A DNA stretch of 48,520 bases from contig JABWCR010000023.1 in assembly GCA_013359125.1 (NCBI GenBank), positions 1 through 48,520 of the forward strand, written 5' to 3'. Shown in pieces: positions 7,059 through 15,066 of the stretch; positions within the stretch are counted from its first letter, which is position 1, and each line of letters starts with the position of its first letter. The notes beneath the pieces were generated by a model. The model saw only the letters and a program-made list of their open reading frames with translations, searched no databases and was not told the origin of the DNA. A program made the translations under genes and the position numbers. Source of the stretch: Armatimonadota bacterium (GTDB taxonomy: Bacteria > Armatimonadota > Fimbriimonadia > Fimbriimonadales > GBS-DC).

Positions 7059-8564
7059 ATGAAGCGTTTCGCATTTGCGTCGCTGGCCGGCGCGCTGCTG
7101 GTCGGGACGTGCTTTGCTCAGGGTCGCATCGTGATCAACGAGTTTCAGTACGACGACTCGGGCACGGACGATAAGGAGTTTGTCGAGCTTTACAACGCTG
7201 GCGATCAGCCGGTTGACATTTCTGGCTGGGTCTTGGCAGCGGGCGATCTGGCCACATTGACCGATAACAACGCCGACTACACGATACCGGGCGGCACCAC
7301 ACTTCAGCCTGGCCAGTATTACGTGCTGGGTTCGGCGGTCGTGCCCAACGTCAACCAGATTGTTGGCGTCAACAATCTGTGGGAGAACGACAACGAGTGG
7401 CTGGCGCTAAAGGACACGGCCGGCAATATTATCGATGCCCTGGCTTACGAGACGAACAAGGGATCGAACTTCCCTGCCGGGCACTTTGAGGGTCTTGGGC
7501 TCTGGGGCAATTTCACCAGTATCGACGGCGATGCGGCCGGAACCGATCTGACTTTTCAGAGCCTGTCTCGATGGGAAGACGGCTACGACACCAACAACAA
7601 TGGGCGCGACTTTGCTCTGAAGATATGGACGCCCGGCTCGAACAACAATCCGACCGCGGCGCCCAGCTTGCCTCGATCGTACGATTTCGACGATAACTTC
7701 ATGGGCGCGATGGTGCCGGACTTCACCGGTTCGTTCCGCAATCCGCGATACATCGATCCGACGGCGATGGACGATTTCGTGCTGTACAACCCGAATATCA
7801 TTCCGGCTTCGCCCCAGGGCGGCAACGCGATGTGCATGTGGGACTGGGCCGGCGGCGGCAACGCGGCGGCGACCGACTTCCACTTTACGGGCGCGCTTGG
7901 CGCTGAGATGTGGGTTTACTTGGACACGGCGCTCCATGCCGGTACCGACTTGGAATCTTGGGCGGTAGGCATCTTGGGCACGACCGAGACTTTCTTTAAT
8001 CTGCCCTTTGTCAATCCGGCCAGCGCCTGTGCGATCACTGGGTTGGCTTGGGTGTGGAGGAAATCGGCCACCGAGAACTCGCTGCGCCTGGTAGACGCCA
8101 AGAACGGCGGCAACTCGGGCGACACGGGCACCGTTTGGAACGTGCTCGGCACTATCGACCTGACCTCGATGGCTTCTGGATGGTACCGATTACGGATCGA
8201 AGCTCAGGGCAGTGTGGTTCGCGGCATCTTCGGCGGCACGTACGGGTCTAAGACAGATGGCACGTCCTTCTGCGGCGTCGTTGACGATGTATCCAATCGC
8301 CGCGGTCAGTTCTACCTCGGCTTCCGCGAGGCGGTCGGCAGCAACCTGGCCACCAACCCGCCGCGCATCGACCGGCTGACGCTGTACGCGCCTGCCGCGG
8401 GCACGGGCGACGTGAACGGCGACGGCTGTATCGACGACACCGACTTGGCGATCGTTCTGACTGCGTTCGGCAGCAACGACTGCACCGCCGACGTGAACAG
8501 CGACGGTATTGTCGACGATACGGACCTGGCTATCGTGCTTGGCACGTTCGGCGACGGCTGCTAA
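7059..8564 (+). CDS. Secreted lamin-tail domain protein with C-terminal dockerin-like repeats
   Basis: 501 residues. Residues 1-20 form a signal peptide (MKRFAFASLAGALLVGTCFA). Residues 22-130 match a lamin tail domain (IVINEFQYDDSGTDDKEFVELYN, then ISGWVL and YYVLGS), an Ig-like fold common in secreted bacterial proteins. The middle, 200-440, looks like a beta-sandwich domain without motifs I can name. The last 50 residues hold two EF-hand-like calcium loops, DVNGDGCIDDTDLAIVL and DVNSDGIVDDTDLAIVL, in a dockerin type I arrangement ending FGDGC. No cohesin is seen in the window, so the tail may be a sorting or anchoring element. A terminator follows immediately. Confidence 0.87.
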   Translation: MKRFAFASLAGALLVGTCFAQGRIVINEFQYDDSGTDDKEFVELYNAGDQPVDISGWVLAAGDLATLTDNNADYTIPGGTTLQPGQYYVLGSAVVPNVNQIVGVNNLWENDNEWLALKDTAGNIIDALAYETNKGSNFPAGHFEGLGLWGNFTSIDGDAAGTDLTFQSLSRWEDGYDTNNNGRDFALKIWTPGSNNNPTAAPSLPRSYDFDDNFMGAMVPDFTGSFRNPRYIDPTAMDDFVLYNPNIIPASPQGGNAMCMWDWAGGGNAAATDFHFTGALGAEMWVYLDTALHAGTDLESWAVGILGTTETFFNLPFVNPASACAITGLAWVWRKSATENSLRLVDAKNGGNSGDTGTVWNVLGTIDLTSMASGWYRLRIEAQGSVVRGIFGGTYGSKTDGTSFCGVVDDVSNRRGQFYLGFREAVGSNLATNPPRIDRLTLYAPAAGTGDVNGDGCIDDTDLAIVLTAFGSNDCTADVNSDGIVDDTDLAIVLGTFGDGC

Positions 8565-9626: not shown

Positions 9627-10738
9627 GGACATACGCCAGCGCGGACGAACTGTTGCAGATTTGCTACGAGCGAGACGCATCGGACATTCACATCGTTTCG
9701 CACGAGCCACCGACGCTTCGGCTTTACGGGCGATTGGTGCGGCTTGAAGAGGAGTTTGGCGAACTGAGCCCTCAAGACACCGAGCGGCTGTTTAGAGAGG
9801 TGGCGCCGACCAAGGCCATCCACGAGTTGGAGCGCGTGCGGACGGCGGACTTTGGGTACACGCACAAGAACGCTCGATTCCGAGTTGCCGCCTATTATCA
9901 GAAGGGCGCGGTAGCGATAAACTTCCGATTGATTCCTTATAAGCTTCGCAGTTTTGAGGACATCGGGCTGCCCGATCATCTTAAGCAGCTGCTCTGGCGA
10001 CCGAGAGGTTTGGTACTGATCACCGGTCCGACAGGATCGGGCAAGACTACCACGCTAGCGACGATGACGGACTACATCAACACCAACCGCGATACGCACA
10101 TCATCACCATCGAGGACCCAATCGAGTATTACCACGAGCCAAAGGCATCGGTTGTGAGCCAGCGCGAGGTGGGGACCGACGTGCCGACGTTCGACGAAGG
10201 CGTGGTGCGGGCGTTGCGAATGGACCCGGACGTGATATTGGTGGGCGAGATGCGCGACCTGAAGACGATCGAAGCCGCCATCCGCGCCGCAGAGACCGGA
10301 CACTTGGTTTTCTCGACCGTCCACACCACGGGAGCGGCGCGAACGGTCGAACGCATTGTAGACGTTTTCCCTACGGAACAACAAGAGCAGATTCGCGTTC
10401 AGCTGAGCACGAACCTGGTCGCCATCATCTCGCAGCTTCTGCTGCCTCGGATCGACCGGCCGGGTCGAGTATCGGCTTATGAGATTATGATCAGCAACCC
10501 TGCTATCGGCCATATGATTCGAGACCGCAAGATTCACTCGATCGTCTCGGCCATTCAGACCGGTCAGCAGCTGGGCATGATGACTCTCGACCACCACCTC
10601 CAGTTTCTCTATCAGCACAAGATCATCTCGCGCGAGGAGATGTACCGCGTGGCGCAGGAACCGGAGGAGCTGGCCAACAAGTTGGGCGAGCCGATCGGCG
10701 ATCTGAATCAGATTAAGGGCGTAAGCCTGGGCGTTTAA
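9623..10738 (+). CDS. pilT: Type IV pilus retraction ATPase
   Basis: 371 residues. PilT hexamers power pilus retraction and twitching motility from the cytoplasmic side. An N-terminal PAS-like region (SADELLQICYERDASDIHI) precedes the ATPase core: Walker A GPTGSGKTT, Asp box ITIEDPIEY, Walker B VILVGEMRD and His box TGHLVFSTVHT. The C-terminal motif MIRDRKIHSI corresponds to the PilT AIRNLIREGK region. The frame extends 45 codons upstream inside purN; I choose ATG 9623 because homology starts there and it overlaps the purN TGA. The TAA overlaps, tail to tail, the TAA of the capsid operon's last gene (TTAA, 10735-10738). Confidence 0.94.
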   Translation: MRTYASADELLQICYERDASDIHIVSHEPPTLRLYGRLVRLEEEFGELSPQDTERLFREVAPTKAIHELERVRTADFGYTHKNARFRVAAYYQKGAVAINFRLIPYKLRSFEDIGLPDHLKQLLWRPRGLVLITGPTGSGKTTTLATMTDYINTNRDTHIITIEDPIEYYHEPKASVVSQREVGTDVPTFDEGVVRALRMDPDVILVGEMRDLKTIEAAIRAAETGHLVFSTVHTTGAARTVERIVDVFPTEQQEQIRVQLSTNLVAIISQLLLPRIDRPGRVSAYEIMISNPAIGHMIRDRKIHSIVSAIQTGQQLGMMTLDHHLQFLYQHKIISREEMYRVAQEPEELANKLGEPIGDLNQIKGVSLGV

Positions 10739-11046
10739 GGTTTGTCCGGCTCCAACAGTACGGCTTGATAGATCGGCACATCGCGCGATCTGACCTCGTA
10801 TTGCTTGAGCGCTGTGTAGTTGGCGCCGCGCCATGCGATGGTTTGGCCTTCTTCGATGACCGGCGATGCTTTGAAGAAGAGCGCGAACAGCGGCCGAACG
10901 AGCAGATCCTGCTCTGGGAAGCTATAGAACATCCGGATTAGATCGGCCGGAGCGGGCTGGAACAGTCCCATGTGCTCGTTCGACTGATACTCGAACGCCT
11001 CGCCGTATCGAGCCAGCCAACGATCGAGCCATCGGACGGGCGTCAT
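10735..11046 (-). CDS. Small phage protein, putative head-closure/head-tail joining protein
   Basis: 103 residues, last gene of the capsid operon. Its start overlaps the stop of the connector gene (ATGA, 11043-11046). I do not recognise a specific family. Size, position after a gp6-like connector and a predicted beta-rich C-terminal half (EEGQTIAWRGANYTALKQYE) resemble head-closure proteins of siphophages. Sequence alone does not prove it. A Trp- and Arg-rich start (VRWLDRWLARYGEAFEY) could bind a neighbouring ring. No tail gene follows; the next gene is pilT on the other strand. Confidence 0.6.
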   Translation of the reverse strand: MTPVRWLDRWLARYGEAFEYQSNEHMGLFQPAPADLIRMFYSFPEQDLLVRPLFALFFKASPVIEEGQTIAWRGANYTALKQYEVRSRDVPIYQAVLLEPDKP

Positions 11047-11459
11047 GATTGGTCGTCCTCGAGCACGAACACTCGCTCGTTCGATCTTGCTGTGAGCTTT
11101 TGTGCGGCGCGAAGGTAGGGGCGCAGCCTGCGCCAGCCTTGCGATTTGAGGCCGAACGGGTCGTTAAAATTCAGATCGCGACCGCCTAGGGGCTGAGTTC
11201 GCAGCCAGCCCAATTGGAAGGGCACGATGGCGCCTTCCTCGTAAAGCAGGCTGGCCAAAAATTCGCCGGAGACGATCTCCAAGGCGGCTAGATCGAGCGT
11301 CGCCACAAGGCCGGGCGTCGAATCGTTCAGGACGACCGGATCGATCGCGTACTCGATAACGGGCACCGTTTCGTCGATCAGCGCGTCGATTTCCGAATCG
11401 TAGGCCGTGCCGGATACTCTGGCCTTTCGCTTCACATCGTTTCTGGTTACCGTAATCAA
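11043..11459 (-). CDS. gp6-like phage head-tail connector
   Basis: 138 residues from a TTG start whose codon overlaps the preceding TGA (TTGA, 11456-11459). The opening ITVTRNDVKRKARVSGTAYDSEIDALIDETVPVIE is cut here by rule, but its first 20 residues already resemble HK97 gp6-type adaptors, which dock below the portal. The frame runs further upstream, but there it is antisense or out of phase with the coiled-coil gene. GGGAG lies 9-10 nt before the TTG. The C-terminal half (LRPYLRAAQKLTARSNE) is helical and basic. Assigned by family resemblance plus operon position. Confidence 0.58.
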   Translation of the reverse strand: MITVTRNDVKRKARVSGTAYDSEIDALIDETVPVIEYAIDPVVLNDSTPGLVATLDLAALEIVSGEFLASLLYEEGAIVPFQLGWLRTQPLGGRDLNFNDPFGLKSQGWRRLRPYLRAAQKLTARSNERVFVLEDDQS

Positions 11460-11749
11460 GAGCGGATCTCCCGCGAGTTTCTCTTGGCGGCCGGCTTGAC
11501 TTCCAACTTTGCAGTGAGCGTGGCCAGAGCAGCCTCCACTCCGTACAGAGCGCGCTTGAGTTCGAGCGTCGAATCTTCTGCGCGCTCCAAGGCTGCCTGC
11601 AGAAAGTCGATAAACCGTTCTGTGATCTCCTCTTGTCTTTCTTGCGCTTCTCGCGCATATCGGTCGATCCTGAGCGCTGCTTGGCGCGCCGCAACGAGCG
11701 ACCATCCGACCAACAGGCTCGTGATGCCTGCGACTTCCGTCCAATCCAT
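11456..11749 (-). CDS. Membrane-anchored coiled-coil protein in the capsid operon
   Basis: 97 residues. One N-terminal hydrophobic segment (VAGITSLLVGWSLVAARQAA, about residues 5-24) is followed by a long charged helix (RIDRYAREAQERQEEITERF and LERAEDSTLELKRALYGVEA) likely to form a coiled coil, and a basic tail ending AAKRNSREIRS. The AAGGAG Shine-Dalgarno (11756-11761, minus strand) fixes ATG 11749. I do not recognise a family. In phage maps this slot between capsid and connector normally holds head genes; a membrane anchor is not standard, although small holin-like or spanin-like proteins do exist in phages. Confidence 0.72.
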   Translation of the reverse strand: MDWTEVAGITSLLVGWSLVAARQAALRIDRYAREAQERQEEITERFIDFLQAALERAEDSTLELKRALYGVEAALATLTAKLEVKPAAKRNSREIRS

Positions 11750-11774
11750 GCTTTTCTCCTTTTGATCGAGGGTT

Positions 11775-11796
11775 GGCCGCTCGAAATCGAGCGGCC
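11775..11796 (-). terminator. Hairpin directly behind the major capsid gene
   Basis: A perfect 9-bp inverted repeat (GGCCGCTCG/CGAGCGGCC, 4-nt loop) starts 7 nt after the capsid stop. On the minus strand no T-run follows, so it may be an mRNA-stabilising or partial terminator hairpin that raises capsid transcript over the downstream genes. On the plus strand it is followed by GTTGTTTTA, so it could also stop antisense transcripts. Confidence 0.6.
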
Positions 11797-11802
11797 GTTG
11801 TT

Positions 11803-12735
11803 TTAGTTGATGCCGGCGTAGGCGGTCTGCCACAGTCCGTATCCGCAACCGTAGCGGGATCGGGCGCCGAAGAGGTAGCGATCTCGCATGAAGGCGCTGT
11901 CGCTGTTGGCCGCGTCCAGGGCTAAGAACTCGATCGGCACGTCGCGCCGTTCTTGAACGATGATCGCGCGCATCTCTCGGCTGGTATCCAGTAGAAACCA
12001 GTAGTTCTGCGCCGATCCGATCAGGTAGGGCGCGACGATCAGGCGGAACTTGCCTTGCAGCACGTTCTTGTAGGGCGAGTATTGCGTTCCCGCGCCTTTG
12101 ACGACGACCACTTCCGATTCGACCAATTCGCGCGCGGTCCATTGCAGCGCTGGACCGACTACCAGCGTATCGGGACGGATGCCCATGATGGCGCCTCGGT
12201 CGTCTTTGAACTGCATCATGGCCGAGGCGGCGTCCTGCAAGGCGCTGGCGGACAGGGCGGCCGAAGCGCGATTGGATTGCGTGCCGCTGTCGCCCTCGCT
12301 GTGGGTCGTGTCGAACAGTTGTTTGCCGTCGTAGCCGATACCGGCCGAGGTTGTGCCCGTTACCAGGGTTTCGATCACTGTCTGTTCGCGATGGCGAGCG
12401 GCCTCTCGGGCCAAATCTCGCGCTCGCATACGGATCATGCCGTATTGGTCGTCCTCTAGCGCCTTGCGGTCCACCGCGATGGTCGCCTCGAAGGTTTTGT
12501 CGCTGATCGAGTAGTTGGCGCTGCGCAAGCCAGCGGGCAGGCGCTCGTCGATGAACTCGCGCATGAGCGGCGCGCTGCCCAGCCAGCCGTACTTTTGCGT
12601 CGGCAGCGTGGTCTGTACGACCGTCGCGATCTGGCCGACCAGGCCTTCATCCGAGCGACGGCGATAAGCGTTCATAAAGTCGACGCGAAGCCCTGCTTCG
12701 AGCAGGGGCATCACGTCCGAGCGTACAATTGGCAA
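11803..12735 (-). CDS. Major capsid protein, Mu gpT-like
   Basis: 310 residues. It matches the Mu-like major head subunit gpT family of HK97-fold capsid proteins: an N-terminal DVMPLLEAGLRVDFMNAY, the loop LFDTTHSEGD, GIRPDTLVVGPALQ, the YWFLLDTSREM strand and the C-terminal GCGYGLWQTAYAG. The start is TTG at 12735, with AGGAGG 9 nt upstream; no ATG fits the family better. The frame is intact and has no sign of decay. Neighbours are the cement protein (16 nt upstream) and a membrane coiled-coil protein downstream. In Mu the same order of protease, decoration and gpT is found. Confidence 0.88.
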   Translation of the reverse strand: MPIVRSDVMPLLEAGLRVDFMNAYRRRSDEGLVGQIATVVQTTLPTQKYGWLGSAPLMREFIDERLPAGLRSANYSISDKTFEATIAVDRKALEDDQYGMIRMRARDLAREAARHREQTVIETLVTGTTSAGIGYDGKQLFDTTHSEGDSGTQSNRASAALSASALQDAASAMMQFKDDRGAIMGIRPDTLVVGPALQWTARELVESEVVVVKGAGTQYSPYKNVLQGKFRLIVAPYLIGSAQNYWFLLDTSREMRAIIVQERRDVPIEFLALDAANSDSAFMRDRYLFGARSRYGCGYGLWQTAYAGIN

Positions 12736-12750
12736 TTCAGATCGCCTCCT

Positions 12751-13164
12751 TTATAGGGTGTAGTTGTCGATGCGGATGCGCACGACGCCGGTTGCGGGCA
12801 GCTCGACGACTGTGCCCACGTTGATGTTGTTCGTGCTGGTCTTGGCGACTTCGTTGTCGGTTACCGCCTTGACGACGACGCCGACATCCGCCTGGGTATA
12901 GGAGCCCGAGCGATTGAACACGAAAGTTCCGCGCTTCATGATTCGGCATCTGAGCGCGCCGTCCGCGCCGCCCGTGTTGTCGGCGGTCTCGTAGGCGACG
13001 CCCACAAACTTGTGGCCGGAGGTATCGGCAGCCGGCACCGCATATCCCGCGGAATCGATGCTGACCAGCGCGCCTTTCCAGATCTTGGCGTTCGCCTTAA
13101 GCGGATAGGCTATCAGCAAGCCGTCCTTTTCGTGCGTCTCGTGGGCTTGGGTCAATGCCGGCAT
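12751..13164 (-). CDS. Capsid decoration/cement protein (DUF2190-like)
   Basis: 137 residues. The layout MPALTQAHETHEKDGLLIAY, then ANAKIWKGALVSIDSAGYAV, GHKFVGVAYET and a closing VVELPATGVVRIRI fits DUF2190-type small beta-barrel proteins found between protease and major capsid genes in many phages; they stabilise the shell from outside. The start ATG has AAGGAGG with a 6-nt spacer and lies inside the end of the protease gene (13-nt overlap), so the two are translationally coupled. Assignment is from pattern and position. Confidence 0.75.
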   Translation of the reverse strand: MPALTQAHETHEKDGLLIAYPLKANAKIWKGALVSIDSAGYAVPAADTSGHKFVGVAYETADNTGGADGALRCRIMKRGTFVFNRSGSYTQADVGVVVKAVTDNEVAKTSTNNINVGTVVELPATGVVRIRIDNYTL

Positions 13165-13913
13165 GTCAGTCCTCCTTTTTCGGTCAGTTCGTTCAGCTCG
13201 ATGTCGGGGAAATGCTCTTGCAGGAACTGGGCGGCCTCTGGATCGAGGCTTTGGGCGGTCTGCGCAGGCGCCAGTTCTCCAAAGAGCGGTCTTTTGGGCA
13301 ACGCGTTGACGAATTGGACGAACGTCTCGGCGATGGACTGCTCGCCGTCGCTAAAGCGCAAGGTGGGCTCGGTCTGCAAGATGCGCAGCGCGAACGGGAT
13401 TGCGCCTGGCGTAACGCGGCCTTCCGTGAGCCATGCTTGGACTTGGCGCTCGGCTTCGACTTGCCGAAGCTTGGTTTCGAGTTCGGCAGCCTTTTGCTGC
13501 CAGTCTGGGTTGTTCAGTTTTTTCACCTCCAATAGTTGCGCGCTAAAGCGGCGCAGGTTGAAAAGTCGAGCGTCCGCGATGCGGGGATTGCCCGTAATGG
13601 AGACCTCGACGATGCTGGAAAGGTCGGATGCGAGGCCGACGCTGAGCGACGCGATGCCCAATCGGTCGAGCAGGTCGTTGGCCTCTTGCATGAGGCGCAG
13701 GCTGCCGAAGAGTTCGGCTCCTTTGCGCCAGACTCGGTCGAGCCAGCCTAGTTTGAACGGCGACGGGGCGTGCTCCACATAGATGGGCGCCGGTTCGTCG
13801 AACGCATCGGCCAGGCGTTGAAGGTCGTTTTGATCGATGACGACCCCTTTGTCGGGATAGTCGCCCGCCTCTAAGAGCTTGGCTTCCCGATTGATCCAGT
13901 TTTCTTTGTCCAC
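13152..13913 (-). CDS. Phage capsid protease/scaffold (Mu gpI-like)
   Basis: 253 residues from GTG 13913, which has AGGAG 5 nt upstream; a TTG at 13928 lies ahead of the Shine-Dalgarno and is unlikely. Residues 1-115 resemble Mu-like head-maturation proteases: IYVEHAPSPFKLGWL (His48 is the candidate catalytic His), LFGSLRL, then RLGIASLSVGL (Ser89 or Ser91 the candidate nucleophile) and ITGNPRIADARLF. Residues 125-155 form a coiled coil (QQKAAELETKLRQVEAERQV), as expected of a scaffold that is digested during maturation. First gene of the capsid operon; I see no clear promoter in front of it. Confidence 0.72.
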   Translation of the reverse strand: MDKENWINREAKLLEAGDYPDKGVVIDQNDLQRLADAFDEPAPIYVEHAPSPFKLGWLDRVWRKGAELFGSLRLMQEANDLLDRLGIASLSVGLASDLSSIVEVSITGNPRIADARLFNLRRFSAQLLEVKKLNNPDWQQKAAELETKLRQVEAERQVQAWLTEGRVTPGAIPFALRILQTEPTLRFSDGEQSIAETFVQFVNALPKRPLFGELAPAQTAQSLDPEAAQFLQEHFPDIELNELTEKGGLTCRH

Positions 13914-14160
13914 TTTTTCTCCTCGCAATGAGTTGGATGCGAGGAGAGGGTTGGTAAACCAGAGGATTGGCCGGGGTATGTGGGCGGCCTTGCCAGCGAG
14001 GACGCTGGCGGTACATCGACGGCCTGATTCGTTCGCTTTTGCCGGGCAGTTGAACTAGAGGTCGTGCAACCCGGCAGAAAGAAGAAGGAATCGCTTCGGT
14101 TTCTATCGAAATAGATAGATAGGCGGGCTTTCCGCCAACAACTGAACGGAGGATTCCAAG
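13914..14160. other. 247-bp divergent intergenic region between the capsid operon and a secreted-protein gene
   Basis: Holds the ribosome binding site of the protease gene (minus), the palindromic hairpin at 13992-14009, a short TAGA-type repeat near 14110-14121, a small GGCGG/CCGCC hairpin near 14122-14136 and the GGAGG of the 14161 gene. No strong promoter hexamers could be assigned for either side. Confidence 0.6.
13992..14009. repeat. Palindromic hairpin, REP-like
   Basis: GCCAGCG, loop AGGA, CGCTGGC: a perfect 7-bp stem with a 4-nt loop. Its core GCG-AGGA-CGC is the same as the core of the tandem repeat at 1-145 (GCG-GGGA-CGC), which suggests related interspersed elements. Confidence 0.6.
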
Positions 14161-15066
14161 ATGAGACGAGTCCTATTGCTTTCTCTCGCGACTGCCGGAC
14201 TGATCGGAGCCGCCTTCGGCCAAGTGTTGTGGGATAACGGGCCGTTACGCACTGGAACCGGCAACGGTTTCAACGGCGCGGACACCAGCGTTCTCGAAGC
14301 CTGTACTAACTTGTTTGGTTCCAACAACAACATCAATGCGCCGATCGCCAATCGACCGGCCGGCGAGCCGATGTATCGAATCGCCGACGACTTTACCTTG
14401 ACCCGCTGCTCGGATCTGTCCGAATTAGAGTGGTTCACATACCAGACTGGTTCGACGACGGTCAGCACGATCACCGGGATCTTTGTTCAGATTTGGGACG
14501 GCCGTCCGGGCGACACGGGATCGAACGTGGTAGCGGGCGATCTGACGACTAATCTGATGACTGCTACCAACTGGACGGGCATGTACCGAGTTACGGGAAC
14601 GGCACTGACTGGCAACACTCGGCCGATCATGCGCGTGCTTGCGAATCTGGCGGGAATTCAGTTAGAAGCCGGTACTTACTGGATCGAAGTGGGCGTTACG
14701 GGCACCCTCGCGTCCGGTCCTTGGGTTCCGCCGGTTACGCCCTCTCGTGCGACAGACAACGCTCGACACTTCATCTTCACCGCGCCCGGCGGCACCACGC
14801 TCGACTGGAACAACAGGCGATGGGCCAACCTAGGGGAAGGCACGTCGACCTGTGCCAACCTGTTGGATGCTCCGTTCATTCTGAGGGGCACGGCGATGGC
14901 TGGCGACGTTAATGGCGATTGCTGCGTGGACGATACCGATCTGGCTATCGTGCTCGAGGCGTTCGGCGATACCGGCGCAGGTCTGCCTGCAGACTTGAAC
15001 GACGACGGAGTCGTCGATGACATCGACCTGGCCATTGTGCTGGAAGAGTTCGGCAACGGCTGTTAG
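14161..15066 (+). CDS. Secreted protein with C-terminal dockerin-like repeats
   Basis: 301 residues. Signal peptide at 1-20 (MRRVLLLSLATAGLIGAAFG). Residues 22-240 look like a beta-sandwich domain that I cannot assign, with RIADDFTL, SELEWFTYQTG, IFVQIWDGRPGD and TYWIEVGV, a pattern seen in secreted proteins of planctomycetes and armatimonadetes. The C-terminus carries two dockerin-type loops, DVNGDCCVDDTDLAIVLEAF and DLNDDGVVDDIDLAIVLEEF, ending FGNGC. GGAGG stands before the ATG and a UUCG-loop terminator follows, so it is a single-gene unit. Confidence 0.85.
   Translation: MRRVLLLSLATAGLIGAAFGQVLWDNGPLRTGTGNGFNGADTSVLEACTNLFGSNNNINAPIANRPAGEPMYRIADDFTLTRCSDLSELEWFTYQTGSTTVSTITGIFVQIWDGRPGDTGSNVVAGDLTTNLMTATNWTGMYRVTGTALTGNTRPIMRVLANLAGIQLEAGTYWIEVGVTGTLASGPWVPPVTPSRATDNARHFIFTAPGGTTLDWNNRRWANLGEGTSTCANLLDAPFILRGTAMAGDVNGDCCVDDTDLAIVLEAFGDTGAGLPADLNDDGVVDDIDLAIVLEEFGNGC

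Follow-up and report, generated by a model that had tools for sequence, protein, structure and literature searches.

A phage-type head operon beside pilT in an Armatimonadota bacterium is probably the head module of a dispersed, gene-transfer-agent-like system

We analyzed a 48,520-nucleotide stretch of DNA from an Armatimonadota bacterium (contig JABWCR010000023.1 of assembly GCA_013359125.1), here called the window, in which six phage-type head genes lie on the minus strand at positions 10735 to 13913. Judged from gene content and arrangement, this operon is probably the head-building part of a domesticated system that resembles a gene transfer agent (GTA) and is scattered over the chromosome; its ancestor would be a phage with a Mu gpT-type capsid and a Mu gp29-type portal. 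A preliminary description, made from the letters of the window, had read the operon as a shell of capsid genes without packaging genes, and had named a search for portal and terminase genes in the rest of the genome as a way to overturn that reading. The search found both genes, and since this portal and TerL belong with the operon, the capsid-only shell is abandoned. The analogy to GTAs, also drawn there, is the branch of the description that the evidence favors.

The Mu-type portal (PF06074) was detected in all 18 genomes of the window's family (f1) and TerL in 17 of them, mostly as single copies, and both are usually solitary genes among unrelated host genes. In the window's genome (G000), the portal and TerL are on contigs C29 and C39 and the head operon is on C23, which makes three loci. 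The complete genome G006 has four loci, with the portal at about 1.23 Mb, the head genes at about 1.41 Mb, TerL at about 2.27 Mb, and an adaptor-stopper pair at about 2.56 Mb; the portal is 178 kb from the capsid gene and 1.04 Mb from TerL. The distance from portal/TerL to the capsid gene is 1.03 Mb in G102, and G098 is compact, at 3 kb. Dispersal is also incomplete in G014, where one contig has TerL and the capsid gene no more than 2 kb from each other, and in G007, where portal and capsid are 17 kb apart. All eight aligned TerL sequences have kept the Walker A (CGRRWGK[TS]E) and Walker B (VDEAA) motifs along with the putative nuclease aspartates. Over both the ATPase and the nuclease domain, the TerL profile matches phage terminases of solved structure, T4 gp17 among them. 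We found no TerS beside TerL in the f1, f2, f4, and f7 loci, an arrangement that is suggestive of a machine packaging mostly random host DNA.

A promoter-like element is common to the separated genes. The motif GGTTG[ACT]C lies 39 to 54 nt before the protease start in all ten f1 head operons displayed and 45 to 52 nt before TerL in 13 of 15 cases, and it occurs between -60 and -25 of one of 474 host genes at the same loci. We built a matrix from the head and TerL sites, leaving out the portal sites, and portal upstream regions scored above background with it (Mann-Whitney p 2e-5); seven of 12 exceeded the 95th percentile of the background and none exceeded its maximum. Many TerL and protease genes of families f2, f4, and f7 have GTTGAC at the same distance, with background counts of 2 of 99 and 0 of 23. 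In the window's genome, the element has the form GGTTTAC before the head operon (13960, minus strand) and before TerL and the form GGTTGAC before the portal, where it precedes a TTG start whose ribosome site is located further in than the mechanically called start. None of the 64 other genes at the G000 loci has it. Upstream of the protease gene in the f7 loci and in L044 (G016), the sequence is TTGACAAATGTC, in which an inverted repeat, GACA-AA-TGTC, overlaps the -35-like part; this repeat is possibly an operator for a common regulator.

Capsid orthologues, 60 to 64% identical, are present in 15 of the 18 family genomes; confinement of the operon to one strain, with decaying frames in its relatives, was what the preliminary description had said would count against its reading. 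The best match of the capsid among the GenBank phage records in the collection has 37% identity, and a peptide-pattern search of genome contigs for close capsid relatives gave only two distant matches. Across 251 sampled genomes of the phylum, we detected the capsid in 92, the portal in 91, TerL in 80, and all three in 74 (cutoffs: E up to 1e-40, 1e-50, and 1e-90, respectively), a co-occurrence with Fisher p values of 4e-36 to 4e-50 in a test that ignores shared ancestry. Within the window's own order, among the 70 genomes listed, which are fewer than the full order sample, 41 have all three genes, 25 have none, and 4 have a partial set. Five genomes of genus g8 (G134, G160, G170, G186, and G205) are without capsid and portal and have kept a TerL homologue that is more distant (E about 1e-66 to 1e-73).

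Families f1, f2, f4, f7, f37, and f38 are monophyletic in the capsid, portal, and TerL trees, and in the TerL tree every host family tested, as well as the window's order, forms a clade; congruence was judged against taxonomy labels and not against a host marker tree. Median ratios of nonsynonymous to synonymous substitution rates (dN/dS; Nei-Gojobori method, among g3 genomes) were 0.06 for the capsid, 0.09 for the portal, 0.10 for cement, 0.12 for CON1, 0.15 for TerL, 0.19 for the protease, and 0.25 for the stopper. The preliminary description had asked for this estimate for the capsid and protease genes, and both values agree with the domestication it proposed, as do conservation over family and phylum, vertical inheritance, mostly single copies, purifying selection, and the common promoter element.

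The six coupled, undecayed head genes of that description are indeed present and intact at about the positions it gave, by our reading of the window and its list of open reading frames (ORFs). The features of the operon are as follows.

13935..13960, minus strand: putative promoter element GGTTTAC-N15-ATCC, 47 nt before the protease start; a form of the GGTTGNC-N15 element
13152..13913, minus strand: head maturation protease, Mu I-like; GTG start after GAGGAG; phrog_976 (E 1.7e-9), weak match to PF10123
12751..13164, minus strand: cement/decoration protein; phrog_1731 (E 1.1e-30), PF09956 (E 1.3e-4)
11803..12735, minus strand: major capsid protein, Mu gpT type; PF10124 Mu-like_gpT (E 2.9e-62), phrog_371 (E 1.6e-65)
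11456..11749, minus strand: coiled-coil protein with an N-terminal transmembrane segment, by sequence features; ATG start
11043..11459, minus strand: candidate adaptor (portal-stopper connector), CON1; TTG start overlapping the preceding stop (TTGA)
10735..11046, minus strand: neck stopper/head-completion protein, CON2, by predicted fold; ATGA overlap

The Pfam and phrog matches bear out the protease, cement, and gpT-like capsid identities first proposed from the sequence. The protease residues His48 and Ser91 are invariant in an alignment of 10 homologues. The cement gene overlaps the protease gene by 13 nt and starts after AAAGGAGGA, and the TTG start of the capsid gene follows AAAGGAGG. The coiled-coil protein had no match in the phage-family scans (Pfam and phrog); its gene follows the capsid gene in families f7 and f2 as it does here and precedes CON1 in several g3 genomes, and the product is possibly a holin/lysis or membrane-associated protein. 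The g3 genomes also have an ORF of 105 to 148 amino acids (aa) before the coiled-coil and CON1 genes, with a weak match to phrog_2498 only, which we take to resemble Mu gp35.

The last two proteins had been called connector-like, a claim that gained a predicted fold for CON2 and stays one of position for CON1. Neither matched a sequence family (Pfam and phrog), and comparison of adaptor and stopper profiles with sequences of solved structures gave nothing convincing. The AlphaFold2 model of CON2 had a predicted local distance difference test (pLDDT) score of 82.6 and a predicted template modeling score of 0.72, and its best Foldseek match was the SPP1 gp6/gp15/gp16 connector complex (7z4w; E 9.6e-4), with weaker matches to the Pam3 neck, SPP1 gp16 (2kca), and the lambda neck. 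CON2 is therefore predicted to have the fold of an SPP1 gp16-like stopper. CON1 was found in 18 of 18 family genomes, and the stopper follows it wherever both were mapped; its AlphaFold2 model was poor (pLDDT 40.9) and was left uninterpreted, and we infer its adaptor role from position only.

The operon has the same G+C content as its flanks, which are ordinary chromosomal genes, as had been described. On one side, pilT (PF00437) converges on the 3' end of the operon with a 4-nt overlap of both gene ends, and on the other, upstream side is a divergent gene for a secreted dockerin-type protein. C-terminal dockerin type I repeats (PF00404) occur in two secreted proteins encoded in the window, at 7059-8564 and 14161-15066, on either side of the operon neighborhood. 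No portal, terminase, tail, or other further phage gene was seen in the parts of the window that were checked, by the ORF list and by Pfam scans of ten other window genes; the phage-family scans covered part of the genes of the window.

Families f20, f37, f38, and f39 have a compact cluster in the order TerS-TerL-portal-protease-cement-capsid-(small beta protein)-adaptor-stopper-holin-like-endolysin, with an endolysin of the Amidase_3, M15, or M23 type where scanned. Host genes flank these clusters on both sides, and we saw no tail gene beside them from TerS to endolysin. In f9, TerS-TerL is separate from the rest; in f7, TerL stands apart and the portal comes after the connector genes; in f2 and f4, a TerL-portal pair is at one locus and the head genes are at another; and genus g3 has even the head operon in two parts, protease-cement-capsid and coiled-coil-adaptor-stopper. 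The compact cluster is ancestor-like, and between it and the window's family the operon comes apart in steps. In f20 genomes (L122, L127, and L139), a gene for a membrane protein of 250 to 257 aa, aquaporin-like by appearance, lies between TerL and the portal. The IMG/VR "viral" contigs L204, L205/L275, and L215 resemble fragments of the bacterial compact clusters, running from TerL or portal to endolysin with no tail, and are probably bacterial DNA classed as virus.

The particle would probably be tail-less. The tape measure family PF10145 and the sheath family PF04984 were found in none of the 18 family genomes, and PF05709 and PF04865 had no match in the nine f1 genomes of the phylum sample. 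All four families matched in control genomes, PF05709 (Sipho_tail) in only 1 of 14. One locus in G006 (L058, G006:C1:668501-688500) appears to be an ordinary Mu-like prophage: its genes resemble those for transposase, ATPase, terminase, capsid, and tape measure, and its capsid shares only about 34% identity with the domesticated one. A conventional tailed GTA, whose tail genes would be scattered as well and too diverged for the four families to detect, is rather unlikely and still has to be taken seriously. The retained adaptor and stopper are the usual docking proteins for a tail, related phages are tailed, and published descriptions of known GTAs give them a filled capsid and a tail (PMC11841831); with the other genes dispersed, tail genes could be too. 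Set against this are the empty searches with the four tail families and the compact clusters, which run from TerS to endolysin between host genes with no tail gene among them.

Other readings would explain less of what we found. Encapsulins are derived from HK97-fold capsids, and the window alone holds head genes only, which would fit a DNA-free protein shell of the encapsulin kind or another use of capsid genes outside transfer; we regard this as improbable, since such a shell needs none of the portal, the TerL with its intact catalytic motifs, the adaptor, and the stopper, all of which are co-inherited and constrained. An encapsulin-type compartment, defined as a shell without portal and terminase, was rejected on the co-inheritance of portal and TerL. 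Slim chances, if anything a shade lower, attach to a phage satellite like the capsid-forming phage-inducible chromosomal islands (PICIs), which would make its own heads and borrow tails from a helper phage. The repertoire matches, with terminases, portal, protease, capsid, and connectors and no tail (description in PMC10690885), yet inheritance here is vertical with host families, usually in one copy, some clusters have their own endolysin, and no integrase was noticed in the gene lists of the parts examined, in which not every flanking gene was scanned. With genes as much as a megabase apart, there is also no unit that could be packaged. A capsid-forming PICI in the sense of a mobile, contiguous island was rejected on the dispersed loci and the vertical inheritance. 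The main alternative of the preliminary description, a recently broken, decaying prophage, draws on the presence of head genes only in the window fragment and on frameshifts in the G011 copies, and is very improbable in view of open-frame orthologues throughout the family and phylum, dN/dS values far below 1, host-congruent trees, and the common promoter. A Mu-like prophage, contiguous and with transposase and tail genes, does not fit either; host genes flank the loci and no tail family was found in f1.

Several observations weigh against a domesticated, dispersed GTA-like system. The promoter element was first spotted by eye, the starts of background genes were assigned mechanically, and five of 12 portals scored below the background 95th percentile. 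The strict motif was absent before the fourth locus (the CON1 module) in nearly all cases, with weaker variants only. The window's own site scores low on the position weight matrix (0.5), so the case for the element in this genome rests on position and the family pattern. The absence of tails rests on four Pfam families of imperfect sensitivity. G017, a family member, has no detectable TerL, partial sets occur in G252, G217, and G208, and many of the genomes are draft assemblies. Tailed phages carry related capsid genes, and because the tailed-phage relatives L203 and L224 (IMG/VR) branch among host lineages at deep nodes of the capsid tree, domestication may have occurred more than once or at different depths. 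In G011, the capsid, portal, and adaptor genes (L057, L100, and L158) have one frameshift each, with both halves highly conserved, which points either to errors of assembly or to a very recent loss of the system.

We compared the system that we favor, a dispersed GTA-like one, with the criteria for GTAs listed in PMC9662315. Its genes are endogenised over multiple loci (three in G000 and four in G006, with solitary terL and portal), it is inherited vertically and co-diversifies with its hosts (families monophyletic in the three trees), and homology or predicted fold relates its capsid, protease, cement, portal, TerL, and stopper to caudoviricete-type proteins, which would form virion-like particles. 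In the dispersed forms, with loci up to 1 Mb apart, its genome is impossible to package whole; the compact clusters, at about 9 to 10 kb, might fit inside one particle. RcGTA and RcGTA-like elements (Rhodogtaviriformidae) are likewise phage-derived head and packaging genes that are vertically inherited, co-diversify with hosts, and occupy several loci, five in Rhodobacter capsulatus (PMC9662315). The system described here differs in its Mu gpT-type capsid and Mu-type portal, the lack of any tail gene found, the solitary terL and portal, and its phylum. BaGTA (Bartogtaviriformidae) and BhGTA (Brachygtaviriformidae), which we compared by description and not by homology, are domesticated packaging particles too, with particles in our case proposed from genes; BhGTA is tailed, reports on BaGTA vary, and the BhGTA "genome", too, is believed to be spread over several loci (PMC9662315). 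Mu-like transposable phages share the gpT capsid, gp29 portal, and I protease families, whereas transposase, MuB, and tail genes are lacking here. Capsid-forming PICIs share head and packaging genes without tail genes and differ from this system, in which no mobility genes were seen, inheritance is vertical, loci are dispersed, and the compact forms include an endolysin.

In the mechanism that we propose for the GTA-like system, one common promoter class, whose presence we observed, would turn on the head operon together with terL and portal at their separate loci. The capsid, cement, and protease, judging by their families, would assemble a prohead on the portal, and TerL would pump DNA into it. 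In the window's order, TerS is not beside TerL and the genes occupy separate contigs or lie as far as a megabase from each other; the particle would therefore be unable to hold the full set of its own genes and is expected to be filled with host DNA instead. The adaptor and the stopper, the latter by predicted fold, would then seal the filled head. Release would be by lysis; the compact clusters of other families, and those families only, end in holin-like and endolysin genes. Because no tail gene was found, the particle would probably be a tail-less, DNA-filled head, and recipients of such a head would, speculatively, acquire the DNA by another route, such as competence. More tentatively, and with somewhat less confidence than doubt, we propose a phylum-wide class of tail-less GTA: an ancient Mu-head packaging machine that would have lost its tail and, apparently in one order, its small terminase, with genes separately located and held together by a common promoter, and that would release stopper-sealed, DNA-filled heads whose DNA enters by another route such as competence.

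Recognizing GTAs outside the alphaproteobacteria is an open problem, as they resemble remnant prophages and can consist of loci with one or two genes, separated by hundreds of kilobases (PMC11841831). In an open-access literature subset, we found nothing relevant by title or abstract on GTAs or capsids in Armatimonadota or on tail-less GTAs. The system described here is a very dispersed GTA candidate that can be traced across a phylum through a compact-to-scattered series and host-congruent trees, and its common promoter offers a way to find the other genes of the set. Should particles form without tails, head, packaging, and stopper genes alone would be a selectable unit, and how the DNA gets in would become the question.

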